From positions 1,922,001 through 1,986,000 of the forward strand of contig NZ_FOZM01000001.1 of NCBI RefSeq assembly GCF_900114675.1: a DNA stretch of 64,000 nt. The letters run 5' to 3'. The number at the start of each line of letters is the position of its first letter. The first letter of the stretch is position 1. Shown here piece by piece: positions 12,915 to 20,331 of the stretch. The position numbers and the translations under genes were made by a program. The notes beneath the pieces are model-generated. The model was not told where the DNA came from. It ran no database searches and saw only the letters and a list, made by a program, of their open reading frames with translations. Source of the stretch: Yoonia litorea (GTDB lineage: Bacteria; Pseudomonadota; Alphaproteobacteria; Rhodobacterales; Rhodobacteraceae).

Positions 12915-15314
12915 ATGGCTGTTTTTGACGGAACAACTGACGCAGACCGATTAACTGGCGGCGCAGAAGATGATGTGTTTTTCGGCATGGCCGGGGACGA
13001 TACCATCAAGGGCGGTGGCGGCACTGACACTGCGCGCTTTAGCGGATTGCTTACACAGTATTCGTGGACGACCACGAACAAGGGCTATCAGATCACCGGG
13101 CCGGACGGCACGGATACGCTCGAAAGCATCGAGGTTCTTCAGTTCGATGATTTTACGTGGAACCTAGACGGACAGAACGACGCCGTTTTCAACTACGACG
13201 CGCTGGTGTTCGAGACAGACGTCAATACGCCGTTTACATTCGAGATCAGCGGTTATGACATTGATGATGCGGGATTTTTCGGCTTTACATATTCCACGCC
13301 CTACATCAACGAATTGCTTCGGACCTCGCTTGAGCAATACGATGTAGGCTATGGCAAAGGGTTTACGGCAACCTACGAATATGATCCCCGCAAGCGCGGC
13401 GATTATCAAAACCAGATCCTGGCCCAAGGCGAAACTGAGACGCTGAATTTTGTCTACCGCTACGGCTCAAGCTCTGCAGGCTACACTGATATTCCCGCAA
13501 GCATCGTCATAACAGGCGTGAACGACGCCCCTGAGGTCATCAAAACTGAACACGCGGACCTGACCACTTTTGTTGTCGAGGATGCGGGCGAGGTTGGCTT
13601 TGCGCTTGAGGCATTCGCGGATGATCCCGACAGCGATGACGACAGCGCGACCCTCTCATGGGAAGTCGTCAGCAAGCCTGACACAGTGTCAGCATGGTTT
13701 GACGGCAGCACATTGTTCGTCGATCCAGGCGCGAATTATCAGCTGTTGTCAGAGGACCAGTGGACCACCGAAACCATCGAAGTTCGCGCAATCGACAGAC
13801 ACGGCGCACCGTCAGAGACACTGGCTTACATGATCAGGATCTATGGGGCTGACGATCCACAACCAAACTATCTGACTGAAGGCGGTGCGCCGGATTACGC
13901 AGCCATCGGGATTGATCCGGCGAGCACCTCGAAGTTGGGCGTAATCTCAGGACTGATCAATGACCCTGCGAACCTTGACTATTTGGCGCATACGGCTGGA
14001 GACGACACACTCGTCGTTCACGCACAATCTTTTGCCTACTTCTACAGCAGGGACTTTCTTTACACTCAGTATGAACTGCCTTGGACCGATCTCTCGATCG
14101 ACATGGGGGATGGTAACGACAAAGCGGTCTTCAAGCTTTCAGGGATCGAATCCGCGCTGAGTGATGTTGAACTGGACATGGGTGCCGGTGAGAACCTGAT
14201 TTCCTTTGAAATTGAAGCGACGGGCTATGCCTATTTATCTGGTAATGAGTTCAATGCAGGGCAACACAGTAGCCAGATCATTGGCGATATAACCTCTGCC
14301 GGTGGTGCCCGGTTTGTCGGCAACAGCTTTGCCTTCGGCGACGGGAACGATCTGCTTCATCTTACATTCAACGTGAGAGGGACCAGTAGTCAAATTCCGC
14401 TGCCGTCCATCTTCAACTTCAACAACAGCTATTTCATGGGGAGCGGCAAAGACACCATCATCCTCGACTTCTTCGTCACGGACGGTGGTGAAATGGAGTT
14501 TAGCGACAGGATCTCGACCTGGGATGGTGATGACTATGTGCGCATGAATAACCTCGACTCCGTCATCGGCGCAGGCTTCCCTTACAGTGGCAACACAGGG
14601 TTCACCGGAAGCATCGATACAGGTCGCGGTGACGATGTCATCGATTTCTTCTGGACTGCGAACACAACCGAGACGGCACTTGGATATCTCAATGCAGGCG
14701 AAGGGACGGATACGCTGAACCTTTGGGGGGATGCGCAGGACTGGACGCTTGTTGAAGACATCGGATGGCGGATCACGCTGAAGAATGGTGGACAGAGCAT
14801 TGCGGTCTCGGGGGTTGAAGAAATCAACTACCTTGGAAACGCGCCCGTCGGGGGTGACCCCACAGACCCAACCGATCCGACAGACCCGACTGATCCGACC
14901 GACCCGACCGATCCCGTCGACCCCGGTCTTGGCACATCGGACGCAGACCGGCTGACCGGAACGGCCGCAGATGACACGCTGCAAGGCGCTGGCGGCCACG
15001 ACACGCTGTCAGGACTGGCTGGTGGCGACATGCTTTATGGTGGTCAGGGACATGACAGGCTTCTGGGTGGCGCGGGGGCCGACCAATTTGTTTTTGCAGC
15101 CGATGGTGGCTTTGACATCGTTTACGACTTTGAGGACGGCACTGACCAAATCGCACTTCTGAACCTGCAGTTTGCAGATTTGACGATTGCGGCACATCGC
15201 GAAACGGATACGCTGATCTCAAGCGGGGAGGCGCATATGATCTTACGTGGTGTTGATGTGGCAAAAGTTGATGCGATGGATTTCTTGACGATCACCGAAA
15301 GCGATATCGCATGA
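12915..15314 (+). CDS. RTX-type secreted protein with calcium-binding repeats
   Basis: 799 residues, acidic, without a classical signal peptide, as expected for type I secretion. Glycine/aspartate repeats occur at both ends: DADRLTGGAEDDVFFGMAGD near residue 15 and a longer block near 690-727 (GGHDTLSGLAGGD, MLYGGQGHDRLLGGAGAD), followed by the usual FVFAADGGFDIVYDF end domain. The middle holds a VNDAPEV segment typical of cadherin-like modules near residue 203, then beta-rich sequence with many Asp and Asn. A tandem DPT linker (residues about 648-671) separates the body from the C-terminal repeats. No enzyme domain is recognised; it may be an adhesin or surface-layer protein. The secretion genes are not adjacent. 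The stop overlaps the start of the lipoprotein gene, so the two are coupled. Confidence 0.8.
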   Translation: MAVFDGTTDADRLTGGAEDDVFFGMAGDDTIKGGGGTDTARFSGLLTQYSWTTTNKGYQITGPDGTDTLESIEVLQFDDFTWNLDGQNDAVFNYDALVFETDVNTPFTFEISGYDIDDAGFFGFTYSTPYINELLRTSLEQYDVGYGKGFTATYEYDPRKRGDYQNQILAQGETETLNFVYRYGSSSAGYTDIPASIVITGVNDAPEVIKTEHADLTTFVVEDAGEVGFALEAFADDPDSDDDSATLSWEVVSKPDTVSAWFDGSTLFVDPGANYQLLSEDQWTTETIEVRAIDRHGAPSETLAYMIRIYGADDPQPNYLTEGGAPDYAAIGIDPASTSKLGVISGLINDPANLDYLAHTAGDDTLVVHAQSFAYFYSRDFLYTQYELPWTDLSIDMGDGNDKAVFKLSGIESALSDVELDMGAGENLISFEIEATGYAYLSGNEFNAGQHSSQIIGDITSAGGARFVGNSFAFGDGNDLLHLTFNVRGTSSQIPLPSIFNFNNSYFMGSGKDTIILDFFVTDGGEMEFSDRISTWDGDDYVRMNNLDSVIGAGFPYSGNTGFTGSIDTGRGDDVIDFFWTANTTETALGYLNAGEGTDTLNLWGDAQDWTLVEDIGWRITLKNGGQSIAVSGVEEINYLGNAPVGGDPTDPTDPTDPTDPTDPTDPVDPGLGTSDADRLTGTAADDTLQGAGGHDTLSGLAGGDMLYGGQGHDRLLGGAGADQFVFAADGGFDIVYDFEDGTDQIALLNLQFADLTIAAHRETDTLISSGEAHMILRGVDVAKVDAMDFLTITESDIA
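14856..14927 (+). repeat. Tandem 9-base repeat encoding a DPT linker
   Basis: Eight 9-base units, each encoding Asp-Pro-Thr or a close variant (the last two encode DPV and DPG). The units differ at third positions (GAC/GAT, CCC/CCA/CCG, ACA/ACC/ACT), so the repeat is kept at protein level but has diverged as DNA. Such low-complexity linkers commonly vary in length between strains. Confidence 0.85.
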
Positions 15315-15907: not shown

Positions 15908-15972
15908 GGGCAGATCGCGCTTGGCGCACGATGCCAGAACATATCTGCCCCGCTCGATGATCCAAAGGATCA
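15908..15972. terminator. Hairpins between convergent genes
   Basis: GGGCAGAT (15908-15915) pairs with ATCTGCCC (15943-15950), with a further TGGC/GCCA pair inside. A second hairpin TGATCC (15958-15963) / GGATCA (15967-15972) runs into the stop codon of the minus-strand LytTR gene. The first probably ends the lipoprotein message; neither has a long T-run. Confidence 0.45.
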
Positions 15973-16731
15973 GGACGTGATCGTACGCGCCTCAATCGTG
16001 GCCTCTACAGCCTTGAGATAGGTGTCGCTCACAGGCAGCTCGCGCCCATCGCTCAGCTTTGCAAAAGCGCGGTTGCCACGCCTTTTGGTGTCCACCAGAT
16101 GCTTCTCGGCAATCCAATGGGAGCGATGCAGGCGAAGACCATTGACCCCTTTCACCTCGTCAATTGCATCGGCAAAGCGGCTCAGGACCAGTTCTTTCCC
16201 AGCGCTCGTCGTCACCTCAACGTAATGGTCCTGCATCGACATCGAGATGATGTCAGCGGTCGTTGTTGAGCGAAACCGGTCATGCAGTTTCGTCCTCACA
16301 ACCGGCGTCGCGTCTTCCGCTGGCGGCAACACCCGCCAATCCATGTATTCAACAACACCGATAATGAAGCCGATCACGGTCACCTGCAGCCAAATCACCG
16401 GCATTCCGTCAGCAGAAACCAATGGGGGCCGAAAGACGGCATTTACAAAAACGACAATCGCAGCCCCTGGCAAGGCACCCAGAGCCGCGCTGATCAGCAA
16501 CCTGAAGGTCTTGGACATCCGGCCAAGAAGCGGTGTCTTGAGGCCCACGGTCATGGTGACATGCATGCAAAAGCCCACGCCACCAACAATCATCACCCAA
16601 AAGACGAACCGGCTCCAGAAGTCGAGGTCGGCGTAGGTGCCGAATGGTCCCAGCAGGGTCAAGACAATCAGCGCTCCGAAAAATACAAGCAGCTTCTTTT
16701 CCCAGCCTATGTCTCCGAAAATTTGGCGCAT
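15970..16731 (-). CDS. Membrane-anchored LytTR-family DNA-binding regulator
   Basis: 253 residues with four membrane helices in the first 145 residues (LLVFFGALIVLTLLGPFG; FVFWVMIVGGVGFCMHV; LLISAALGALPGAAIVVFV; WLQVTVIGFIIGVVEY), followed by a LytTR DNA-binding domain from about residue 160. That domain has ISMSMQDHYVEVTTSAGKE, VNGLRLHRSHWIAEKHLVD and GRELPVSDTYLKAVEA. The regulator would sense something at the membrane and bind DNA directly without a separate kinase, an arrangement frequent in alphaproteobacteria. The start at 16731 fits the first helix; an upstream extension to 16971 has a different composition and overlaps the divergent gene. Ribosome binding site weak. Targets unknown. 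Confidence 0.8.
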   Translation of the reverse strand: MRQIFGDIGWEKKLLVFFGALIVLTLLGPFGTYADLDFWSRFVFWVMIVGGVGFCMHVTMTVGLKTPLLGRMSKTFRLLISAALGALPGAAIVVFVNAVFRPPLVSADGMPVIWLQVTVIGFIIGVVEYMDWRVLPPAEDATPVVRTKLHDRFRSTTTADIISMSMQDHYVEVTTSAGKELVLSRFADAIDEVKGVNGLRLHRSHWIAEKHLVDTKRRGNRAFAKLSDGRELPVSDTYLKAVEATIEARTITS

Positions 16732-16907
16732 CGTGAATTCAAATGTTTCAGAACTCGCGAAGTCAAGCCGGATTTCACGAAGAACGCTTTGGTTTTGCTG
16801 GGTCTGCGTGGCTCTTTGTGCCCGTCTCTGGGCGGCGACGGTCCCCGACCGATCCAATTCTCCGTGCAGAGCCCAATCACACAAACTGGGCAACATGGGG
16901 TAAAGAT

Positions 16908-17540
16908 ATGCTTCGCAAAGCGCACCGAAATGCAGAGGCACTGAAGAAAGAATTGGTGTCTTTACGGCCAATGACTTCGCTTGTGGAAAAAGAACTGGCC
17001 ATCGTCACCGGGGCCATCAAAAGAGAAACGGTCAACTGGGTCCCCATGTGGGTCGATTGGGACAACGCGGTGCGCGCTGGGGCCTCTCTGGCGACGGCAG
17101 TCAGGGCCATCACAGACGCGGGCGAACTGCTTTGGTATGTCCGCCATGACACCAAGAAGCATGGCTATCACTCCAGTGCCGATGACCCTTTCCACGCCGT
17201 CGAGCAGGCAGAGGATGCATGGAACCACAGGCGGCGCGTTCGGCGGGACTGGGCAAGGGTCGAAGTCGTCCGAAAGGACCTGTTGTGGGGGCGGCGAAAA
17301 TTCAGAGTGTTGGTGCAGGATGCCTACGACAGTGCGCTCTGCTCTTTGGGGATTCAGTGGTTTTTGAAGCGCATGCGCTTGTCGCATGTCGACGGCATTT
17401 CAGGAAGAACTGCCGCAATCCTAATGAAAATCGAACCGCAATTGGGTTTTGTCATCCATCAGGCGCTCGAACGTGAAACGGCGGCGGTTCTCTTTCCTGA
17501 TGACCCAACCCCGGGAAGAGTGGATATCATCCCATCGTGA
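16908..17540 (+). CDS. Protein of unknown function
   Basis: 210 residues, not recognised. Start ATG 16908 has GGGG about 8 bases upstream; a longer frame from 16743 overlaps the start of the divergent LytTR gene and is less likely. The N-terminal third is charged and helical (MLRKAHRNAEALKKELVSLR), the middle has many Trp, Asp and Arg (WVPMWVDWDNAVRAG; WNHRRRVRRDWARVEVVRKD), and the end contains SALCSLGIQWFLKRMRLSHV. There is no signal peptide or clear membrane helix. The short repeat of W and basic residues could suit a nucleic-acid or membrane-surface contact, but this is a guess. It may share a divergent promoter region with the LytTR gene. Confidence 0.55.
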   Translation: MLRKAHRNAEALKKELVSLRPMTSLVEKELAIVTGAIKRETVNWVPMWVDWDNAVRAGASLATAVRAITDAGELLWYVRHDTKKHGYHSSADDPFHAVEQAEDAWNHRRRVRRDWARVEVVRKDLLWGRRKFRVLVQDAYDSALCSLGIQWFLKRMRLSHVDGISGRTAAILMKIEPQLGFVIHQALERETAAVLFPDDPTPGRVDIIPS

Positions 17541-17800
17541 TCCCTGGCCTTGCTTTTAACGTCTAGGCTTCGCCTGAAAGGTCAAAGCTCTTCCCGTCCG
17601 CACACCGCGACCTTCCGAAAGCGCAACGCAAGACAAACCTCAGTTACACGTCAAACAGATGTATGATTTATCACCCATCGATGTATGATTTCTTTATAGT
17701 CGACGGAAAGAATTTGAATAATTGGATCATCCCCGAAAATCAGGCAAAACTGACGTTAAGGTAAAAGCCTAGTATCTACAGCGTTGTTACAGAGTTTGTA
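17541..17800. other. AT-rich upstream region with a 12-base direct repeat
   Basis: This 260-base region before the 29-codon frame is clearly richer in A and T than its surroundings. GATGTATGATTT occurs twice, at 17658-17669 and 17680-17691, a period of 22 bases (about two helical turns), as expected for side-by-side protein binding. A TAGTAT at 17770-17775 could serve as a -10 box, but no well-spaced -35 box goes with it. No gene is seen before 17801. Confidence 0.45.
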
Positions 17801-17890
17801 ATGAGTGCTTCGTTGAACGAGTTTGTTTTTGGTTTGCTGGCTGGTTTTTGCTTTTGGGTCGCGTCTAATTTTGTGAGTGGACGGGCGTGA
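17801..17890 (+). CDS. Putative 29-residue membrane peptide
   Basis: A 30-codon frame, ATG 17801 to TGA 17890, reading MSASLNEFVFGLLAGFCFWV then ASNFVSGRA. It has one hydrophobic helix of about 17 residues with an acidic N-terminal side and an arginine at the end. Supporting evidence: it lies alone in an AT-rich gap, has a two-copy direct repeat upstream, and is followed by a strong forward terminator 73 bases on, which otherwise would have no gene to terminate. Against it: no good ribosome binding site (only CAGAG). The transcript could instead be a small RNA of roughly 200 bases, with this frame incidental. Confidence 0.4.
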   Translation: MSASLNEFVFGLLAGFCFWVASNFVSGRA

Positions 17891-17962
17891 TCTTTATATT
17901 GTTAGAGTAATTTGTGCTGCATCAGTCTCTGACGTCACGAATAAAAGCAGCCATCACGTTCA

Positions 17963-17999
17963 GGCAGCGACTTAGCTAGTCGCTGCCTTTTTTCTTTTC
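17963..17999 (+). terminator. Strong rho-independent terminator
   Basis: Perfect 10-base stem GGCAGCGACT (17963-17972) and AGTCGCTGCC (17978-17987), 5-base loop, then TTTTTT (17988-17993) and a further T-rich stretch. It reads forward and ends a transcript from the 17700-17960 region. Confidence 0.9.
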
Positions 18000-18010
18000 T
18001 TAATCAAATG

Positions 18011-18042
18011 AAAAAAATGCCGTGAGGCACTATTTCGCGGCA
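18011..18042 (-). terminator. Rho-independent terminator of the minus-strand gene
   Basis: Read on the minus strand, TGCCG (18042-18038) pairs with CGGCA (18022-18018), helped by inner GA/TC pairs, and is followed by seven T (18017-18011). The stem begins at the last codons of the gene ending at 18030. It lies back-to-back with the forward terminator at 17963. Confidence 0.75.
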
Positions 18043-18296
18043 CACCGCGCAAGTGCAGTCGCGGCCATCAGGGCATCGTGGATGCACTGTTGCGACATGT
18101 CGATCGCACAGACCTGTTTTTGGCCCGGACCAACCTGGAACAGGCTGGGGCAGTAAACGCCGTCTTCAACTTGCATGACGCATGGCACCCAGCGACCGCC
18201 CTGCCCTTCAACCGGCTTGCCACGCAAGACGTTAACGGCACCACTTGGCGGTTGGGTAAACCCAATGGAGATACGAAAAGACTCAATAGTACTCAT
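18030..18296 (-). CDS. Small protein of unknown function with conserved-looking cysteines
   Basis: 88 residues starting MSTIESFRISIGFTQPPSGA. It has cysteines in WVPCVMQVEDGVYCPSLFQV and IDMSQQCIHDALMAATALAR, with a terminal RCAAK. AGAGGA lies about 8 bases before the ATG, and a rho-independent terminator overlaps its end, so it is a monocistronic gene with its own signals. No signal peptide or membrane helix is seen, so it should be cytoplasmic. The cysteines could bind a metal or form disulfides. I do not recognise the family. Confidence 0.65.
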   Translation of the reverse strand: MSTIESFRISIGFTQPPSGAVNVLRGKPVEGQGGRWVPCVMQVEDGVYCPSLFQVGPGQKQVCAIDMSQQCIHDALMAATALARCAAK

Positions 18297-18549
18297 GACA
18301 GATCCTCTGCCCCCTAAAGAGACAGGGCAAATTGTCTAAACGAAGGCGGGAATTTGAAATCTCTGTTTCGAAAAACCACAATTTTCATGATCGTCCGGCA
18401 GTCCAAGGTATCTGCGCGGTCCCAAGAACTCCCTAACAAGGATAAGATTTCGACTTTTTTCCTCCATCTTTGCTACCTACTACTTTCAGTCGAGCTTGGG
18501 GCACCTTCGTATTGCAGCCCTTAGAGCGACTTTAGCGTTGAGGTATCAG

Positions 18550-19440
18550 GTGAATCAGTCCAAGGCGAACAGTGGCGTATCGGTTGCAATGATCCGCGCG
18601 TTTGTTTGCGTCAGCAAACATCTCAACATCTCGCAAGCATGCCTCGAACTTCGCGCGACCCGCCAGACCGTACGTCGCCACATCAATGACCTTGAATTCA
18701 TTCTTGGCGGTGACCTCTTTGAGGTCGTGGATCGCCAATACCAGTTGACCAGTTTCGGCGCAAAAATGCTGGAGGGTGCAAAATCCCTGCTAACGCAGAT
18801 TGATGCGTGGTCAGGGCAATCCCCGCTGACGCGGCACGCAACCGACGGTCTTGAAAGCCAACGCTACACTGATGCGCAGGGACGGGTTTATTATTCCCAG
18901 CAACACCCTGTGTCGCAGATCGCGCGGGAAGGCTTGCCGCTTATGAAACAGGCCTTCAAGGCCTGGGGCACTGCCGAAACGCAGATTGATCACGAAGCGA
19001 TGGACGCCATCCGCCCTTATGCCGTGCTCTACCGTAAGAGCGCGCTCGGCTGGGTTTATGTGCACGTTGGCGAAGAATCGGCTTACGCCAGATGGCTTGG
19101 TCCGACGATTGCGCGAAGTGTGATCGGTCGCTTGATCTCCGACGACAGTGCGAGCGAAGACTACGATGAGTTCATGGGCGGCGCTTATTCACGGATCTAC
19201 GAGGAAGGCGGCGTCCGCTTTGACCATATTCTGGCACACATGCCGCGCGAAAGCGGAGAGACGAAAGCCGGCTCGTTCCAGAGACTGCTGATGGGCGGCG
19301 TTTTCCCCGATGGAACCCACGGGCTTATCATCATCGCAGCGCTGACAGAAAACATCGTCATTGACGCGCTTTGCGCCGAAGATCGGCCAAAACTTCCTGA
19401 GTGTCTTTTGATGGACCGGGTTCTGCAGTCTGCAGACTAG
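18550..19440 (+). CDS. LysR-type winged-helix protein with an unusual C-terminal part
   Basis: 296 residues. The N-terminal 75 residues are a LysR-like winged HTH (SVAMIRAFVCVSKHLNISQA, RATRQTVRRHINDLEF, LGGDLFEVVDRQYQLTSFGA). After it there is no recognisable LysR co-inducer domain: the rest has RPYAVLYRKSALGWVYVHVG, ARWLGPTIARSVIGRLISDD and a predicted alpha/beta pattern unlike the periplasmic-binding-protein fold. I selected GTG 18550 because GAGG lies 6 bases before it; a TTG at 18496 gives a longer frame with no site. It is followed at 19573 by an unrecognised gene on the same strand, its likely partner or target. Confidence 0.65.
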   Translation: MNQSKANSGVSVAMIRAFVCVSKHLNISQACLELRATRQTVRRHINDLEFILGGDLFEVVDRQYQLTSFGAKMLEGAKSLLTQIDAWSGQSPLTRHATDGLESQRYTDAQGRVYYSQQHPVSQIAREGLPLMKQAFKAWGTAETQIDHEAMDAIRPYAVLYRKSALGWVYVHVGEESAYARWLGPTIARSVIGRLISDDSASEDYDEFMGGAYSRIYEEGGVRFDHILAHMPRESGETKAGSFQRLLMGGVFPDGTHGLIIIAALTENIVIDALCAEDRPKLPECLLMDRVLQSAD

Positions 19441-19572: not shown

Positions 19573-20331
19573 ATGTCGGCGCGCTCAGTCTTTAAGATGG
19601 CCAAGAATGTCTCCCTTATTGTCAGAGAGCTCGAGGATGCCGGTATGCGCATCGAGCTTGGTGATGATTTTGCGACTTATCGTGCATATCGCAGCAACTG
19701 CGCAGGGCGTTCCATCGATTTTCCGATCTTTGACGCGGCCACATCGTTTATCGATGCAAGCAACGGTTTCTGGATTTGTGGATTCGACAAAAACGATCAG
19801 CTGGTTCACACGCAAGCTGTGCGGCTGCTGGATCTCGGTGACCTGACTTTGGCGGAGCATCTGGACACACATCGTCACAAATACATTGTTGCAGACTCAA
19901 CGCCTGATCCCGATCAGACATTCTTTCGCGGCCCCGAAGCACTCCGTCTTGTGACAGGTCGCGTAGGGTATTGCGGCGATTTCTGGCTGGCACCACAAGG
20001 CTTGGGCGGACCGCGCAGTCAGGGTGCCACAAGTCTTCTGGCGCGCCTCGTCTTTGAGGTGATGGAAAAAACATGGCGTCCGGACTTTGCCTTTGCCTTT
20101 GTCCCCAAGCAACTGGCGGCCAAAGGAGCACACCTCAGATATGGCTATAGCCATTGCGAGCCCGGCCGGTGGATTGGCCCTGACCAGCAGATCACCCACG
20201 AAGAATATCTGATCTGGATGAGCGCATTCGATATCGACAATCTCGTCGCACGCGACCTGCCAACGTTGAAGACAGCGTCTCAGATCGCGAGCGTCGGGCT
20301 GTCGGTCGCAGCAACAGAAGGCAAAGGCTAA
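19573..20331 (+). CDS. Protein of unknown function, downstream of the LysR-like gene
   Basis: 252 residues with a good ribosome binding site (GGGAGA, 6 bases before ATG). No signal peptide or membrane span. The sequence has RIELGDDFATYRAYRSNCAG near the start, GFWICGFDKNDQLVHTQAVR around residue 75, RLVTGRVGYCGDFWLAP near 125, and FAFAFVPKQLAAKGAHLRYG / HCEPGRWIGP near 190. The late part with FVP, LRYGY and R-W-I-G-P is faintly like acyl- or aminoacyl-transferase folds of the GNAT type, but no acetyl-CoA motif is clear, so I leave it unassigned. It sits 132 bases after the LysR-like gene and may be controlled by it. Confidence 0.6.
   Translation: MSARSVFKMAKNVSLIVRELEDAGMRIELGDDFATYRAYRSNCAGRSIDFPIFDAATSFIDASNGFWICGFDKNDQLVHTQAVRLLDLGDLTLAEHLDTHRHKYIVADSTPDPDQTFFRGPEALRLVTGRVGYCGDFWLAPQGLGGPRSQGATSLLARLVFEVMEKTWRPDFAFAFVPKQLAAKGAHLRYGYSHCEPGRWIGPDQQITHEEYLIWMSAFDIDNLVARDLPTLKTASQIASVGLSVAATEGKG

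Follow-up and report, generated by a model that had tools for sequence, protein, structure and literature searches.

Positions 17729-17993 (+ strand) of the window, the 64,000-nucleotide stretch of DNA analyzed here, most probably (about 90%) encode a small non-coding RNA of ~265 nt, with an estimated 5' end, a 3' end within a T-run and homologous units in related genomes. As judged from sequence comparison, the RNA is a member of an undescribed family in marine roseobacters, present in part of the genus and rare outside it. The gene is probably controlled by the LysR-type regulator encoded next to it. The RNA family is conserved and structured, is missing from Rfam 15, and is tied to a conserved, unnamed regulatory module in marine roseobacters.

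Architecture of the locus

The RNA gene lies in an AT-rich island, recognized as such in the first-pass annotation, in which G+C is 0.41 (17640-18000) against 0.57 for the window. Upstream of it, on the + strand, is a predicted operator (17660-17688) that combines the imperfect palindrome TGTATGA-N4-TCACCCA (17660-17677) with a further half-site, TGTATGA (17682-17688). The 12-base direct repeat that had been pointed out here, GATGTATGATTT at 17658-17669 and 17680-17691, is real and is explained as part of this putative regulator-binding site. A promoter box, AATTTGAATAATTGG, follows at 17711-17725, with a -10-like AATAAT at 17717-17722, from which transcription would start at ~17729. The unit closes with an intrinsic terminator (17962-17993, +), an 11-bp stem with a 5-nt loop (17962-17988) followed by a T-rich run. 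Beyond it lie a convergent gene for an 88-aa protein (18030-18296, - strand), a LysR-type regulator gene (18496-19440, +) and a conserved gene for a 252-aa protein (19573-20331, +), all of them conserved neighbors of the RNA. Because the next gene is convergent, a role of the unit as leader or attenuator of a downstream gene was ruled out.

The perfect 10-base stem with T-run noted previously is thus present, and when the 489-nt intergenic stretch was simulated 1000 times with a Markov model, a perfect 10-bp stem with a T-tail never arose. The accompanying claim that the terminator faces away from every neighboring gene was mistaken: a + strand frame that begins at 16743, or at the ATG of 16908, and stops at 17540 reads toward it, and its codon-position G+C (0.61/0.44/0.64, counted from 16908) is gene-like. 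The argument for independent transcription therefore comes from the conserved operator-promoter-RNA-terminator unit and not from gene orientation. It is very improbable that the terminator only ends the transcript of this gene-like upstream frame, since the unit recurs, complete with an operator and a promoter box of its own at a constant distance from each other, where the frame has no match (tblastn, 0 matches in the 28 related loci searched, in sets of 8 and 20).

Homologous units in related genomes

A blastn search with 17640-18000 against 99 relatives recovered, besides the window itself, the operator stretch alone, at two places in genome G006 and one in G045, with 94-97% identity; two matches of 20-21 nt (G049, G075) were taken as chance. 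Each of these operator matches is followed by a similar unit of ~330 nt that ends in a terminator-like hairpin. With one such unit as query, a search of the 56 genus genomes found it in G006 (two copies), G008, G018, G027, G045, G047 and G052, short matches in G010, G022, G031 and G051 being treated as chance. Apart from the second G006 copy, these copies share the module with the window, at identities of 45-56% for the 88-aa gene, 58-64% for the LysR-type gene and 60-70% for the 252-aa gene.

A covariance model, R1, built from eight homologous units with the window excluded, identified further copies adjoining the module in G035 (102 bits), G046 (86), G003 (36) and, in another genus, G407 (30). 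It matched the window itself at 17756-17899 with 10.7 bits and an E of 0.001, a value that holds within the 489-nt intergenic stretch only. Run across the genus, R1 reported 10 of the 11 genomes that carry the RNA, the window's own copy being missing at E 0.1. We ascribe the weak matches that it gave elsewhere, in G010 and G030 (E 0.077), to chance. RNA, operator and neighbor genes occur together in 10 of the 55 other genus genomes, and these are exactly the ones with the 252-aa gene, which is thus found, like the RNA, in 11 of 56.

Across the family, 47 of 394 genomes, counting that of the window, have the 252-aa gene (E up to 1e-10), usually beside a LysR-type gene. The family-wide R1 search, in which only seven candidates were scored per genome, gave weak matches in three of the 394: G407 at the module, G312 ~100 kb from its module, and G239. 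Strong 252-aa matches (E up to 7e-59) came from 19 further genomes of the family, of which we examined 17 (all but G193 and G119); the RNA was identified by the model in G407, and an RNA-like unit by eye in G312. The RNA-like unit in the latter (locus L051) lies upstream of the 88-aa gene, inverted, on the strand opposite to the module, and has an operator, an AATTG box and a terminator-like stem of 13 bp, with several copies of GAGT; R1 did not recognize it.

The second copy in G006 (locus L037, G006:C4:9000-25000) has its RNA at G006:C4:16531-16891, beside a NusG-family gene. This copy has operator and RNA, yet none of the nine window neighbors searched for, an arrangement consistent with action and control in trans.

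Rfam 15 gave no match at gathering score for the window and seven homologous loci, only matches below threshold. No known RNA family or tRNA was found at the locus, plasmid records yielded no match, and the literature, as judged from search results, offered no account of the family. In our view this is a small-RNA family that is new but of a known kind, and whose mode of action is possibly novel.

A covarying structure with a perfect terminator

The structure was derived from an unfitted alignment of eight sequences, in which 12 of 32 pairs have changed on both sides and 89.8% pairing is kept (0 of 500 shuffles). L023 was set aside as a duplicate of L009, to which it is near-identical over the aligned stretch. 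A 13-sequence alignment that includes the window was fitted to that structure. In the alignment so fitted, 24 of the 32 pairs have changed on both sides (0 of 500 shuffles), and 86.5% of cells pair, as against 35-43% with the partners slid, a level that again no shuffle among 500 reached. Hairpin P4 covaries across copies, and in 12 of 14 of them its loop carries UGUGAG at a distance of 117-123 nt from the end of the terminator. In the window it occupies 17856-17893 (+), with the UGUGAG loop 117 nt from the end of the RNA.

No other copy in the genus is as diverged as that of the window. Its overall fold is modestly stable (z -1.83), helix P1 does not form, and its R1 score is the lowest among the genus copies. 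The lost helix and the low score are what a decaying remnant of an RNA gene, nonfunctional in this genome, would display. We consider decay improbable, however, as operator, spacing and P4 with its loop are all kept, and the terminator stem, though wholly different, is still perfect.

The 29-codon frame

The first-pass annotation had left two readings of the island standing, a small RNA or a small membrane peptide. Homologous, covarying units with operator, promoter box and terminator at the same position in relatives bear out the former; the latter finds no support. The proposed frame is present at 17801-17890 (+) and does have one hydrophobic stretch. When it was aligned with 11 genus copies from ten genomes (L051 and L054 omitted), all 11 showed an insertion of 14-16 nt just 3' of the start codon, together with further 1-nt or other small indels. 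The window's ATG at 17801 aligns with GTG in ten of the copies and with TTG in one, and none of the 11 encodes a similar peptide. Comparison with relatives had been suggested earlier as a check, with frame-breaking changes as the outcome favoring RNA only, and that is the outcome we obtained; conservation of the frame among relatives, the mark of a small membrane protein, was not seen.

The length of the frame is what chance would provide: 64% of 2000 simulations of the 489-nt stretch contained a + strand ATG frame of at least 29 codons, and the actual stretch also contains one of 33 codons. The codon-position G+C (0.43/0.50/0.47) is unlike that of the surrounding genes. Since the frame is broken by the 14-16-nt indel in every copy compared, we judge it not to be a gene. 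Despite the hydrophobic stretch, a 29-residue membrane peptide starting at 17801 is extremely improbable, and this reading was dropped on account of the frame breaks and the chance length.

Operator, promoter and candidate regulator

In 13 of 13 copies, the promoter box begins 51 nt after the start of the operator. The inverted unit in L051 has a differing box that begins at 49 nt, and the common AATTG stands at 60 nt in all 14. The operator site is single in its genome; a matrix made from the RNA-bearing loci, window excluded, scores 27.9 at 17660 against 9.3 at the next-best other place in the window. Relative to the estimated transcription start, the operator centre would fall at about -60 and the further half-site at about -43, a spacing found in many LysR-type promoters.

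Among the LysR-bearing loci of other genera, eight of 11 have an operator site that scores above the maximum of 60 simulations. In L059, L061 and L063-L066, where no RNA was recognized, the site is found 42-85 nt ahead of the LysR start; that of L051 precedes the inverted unit, and that of L062 is 999 nt away. No operator was found within the 1 kb searched in L050, L053 and L060, nor in any of the five module loci that lack a LysR gene. Because the operator tracks the LysR gene, and stands upstream of it where no RNA is recognized, the LysR-type protein is the likely activator. We propose that the adjacent LysR-type protein would bind the TGTATGA-N4-TCAYMCA operator and, once bound, would activate transcription of the RNA. 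Since XRE-like frames adjoin the operator in several distant loci without the RNA (read by eye), an XRE-type protein could instead be the binder, leaving the RNA outside LysR control. This is unlikely, if less so than the alternatives considered above, given that in the window, as in its relatives within the genus, it is the LysR gene that is conserved as a regulator next to the RNA, and that the operator is absent from all of the module loci without one.

The window's LysR-type protein is recognized by its HTH_1 domain (PF00126, E 6e-10), with no match for the C-terminal part, and HTH_1 is found in all 23 members of the LysR-type set. The LysR substrate-binding domain was absent from the six families that the window protein matched with E up to 1, and from the 25, out of 34, that are listed for the set.

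In Agrobacterium, small RNAs are under the direct control of the LysR-type protein VtlR (PMC7486931), and the small RNAs of VtlR/LsrB in Rhizobiales include AbcR1 and VrsA. The present locus resembles that system in associating an alphaproteobacterial LysR-type protein with small RNA, the control here being predicted from operator linkage. It differs in that only the HTH part of the regulator is recognized, and in that the RNA matches no Rfam family and adjoins both its presumed regulator and the conserved 252-aa gene. An AbcR-like RNA was not found at the locus, there being no Rfam match (assuming that an AbcR model is among the 4227 searched). Since the locus offers a specific operator, a candidate for the regulator and a motif that is repeated, the activator and the partner of the RNA become directly testable.

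A repeated RYGAGU motif and possible modes of action

The window RNA contains three RYGAGT copies (17801-17806, 17818-17823 and 17873-17878, all +) and extra GAGT at ~17792 and ~17905. Across 14 RNAs, RYGAGU occurs 54 times, at 2-6 copies per RNA, against 10.3 expected and a maximum of 22 in 500 shuffles, figures to be read in the light of a motif chosen after inspection and RNAs that are related. For the window RNA alone the count is 3 against 0.39 expected, which 3 of 500 shuffles reached. The motif has a density of 13.4 per kb in the RNAs versus 0.43 per strand-kb in the window; its reverse complement is absent from the RNAs, and there are 26 instances of TGAGYR, the reversed pattern, which overlaps it. 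For the GAGU of the motif the unpaired fraction is above average (0.48 vs 0.35), so that the RNA displays what is expected of a decoy, a short repeated motif that is preferentially unpaired. In L054, three tandem hairpin-like repeats are arranged around UUGAGUG or GUGAGUG.

These repeats suggest either a decoy that binds a protein or an RNA that pairs at several sites. The RNA may act in trans, presenting several RYGAGU copies in loops and linkers, and an RNA-binding protein might be sequestered by these copies in the manner of CsrB/RsmZ, with a different motif; we offer the decoy mechanism tentatively. CsrB and RsmZ likewise end in a terminator and repeat a short motif in their loops and linkers. 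Their motif is GGA, unlike the RYGAGU seen here; the RNA described here has no Rfam match, and its partner protein is hypothetical. Most trans-acting small RNAs of such size pair with mRNAs, and an ordinary base-pairing RNA, whose GAGU single strands would be seeds for several mRNAs instead of protein sites, is a serious contender at somewhat short of even odds. The stretch GTAGTGAGTGGGTGTAGTGAG, identical in five RNA copies, speaks for pairing. Beyond the closest relatives, however, only short RYGAGU cores persist, varying in number and position, which fits a protein site better without being decisive.

Returning to the decoy mechanism, its fullest form would be a new protein-sponge RNA in which RYGAGU titrates an RNA-binding protein and the LysR-HTH/252-aa sensing module sets the RNA level, a scheme we regard as doubtful in its entirety. 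Should a protein bind the motif, a new post-transcriptional regulator would come to light in these marine roseobacters; if the sponge scheme were true, these roseobacters would have a CsrB-like switch built from unrelated parts.

Neighboring proteins

The 252-aa family has no relative in Pfam, NCBIfam or among solved structures. It is tempting to speculate that small RNA, regulator and putative enzyme gene could form a signaling module like those of the LuxI type (PF00765), although the 252-aa family, unlike LuxI, has no profile relation to PF00765. A LuxI relationship was rejected, as hhalign gave a probability of 0.5% against LuxI synthases from the genus and class (12 of 20 extracted LuxI frames aligned). 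Structures predicted from single sequences, those of the window, had a mean pLDDT of 35 for the 252-aa protein and 38 for the LysR-type protein, too low to be of use.

The 88-aa family has an invariant W and two invariant C residues, and matches no database entry, Pfam and NCBIfam included; its gene is often in the same module also where the RNA is not recognized. In L052, L055, L056 and L058, which have the module and no LysR gene, an EAL-domain-like frame, read by eye, lies upstream of the 88-aa gene. Elsewhere in the window, 12915-15314 (+) encodes a 799-aa RTX-type protein with calcium-binding repeats (PF00353), beside a short lipoprotein-like frame, and 15970-16971 (-) encodes a LytTR-type regulator (PF04397) with an N-terminal part that is predicted to be membrane-like.
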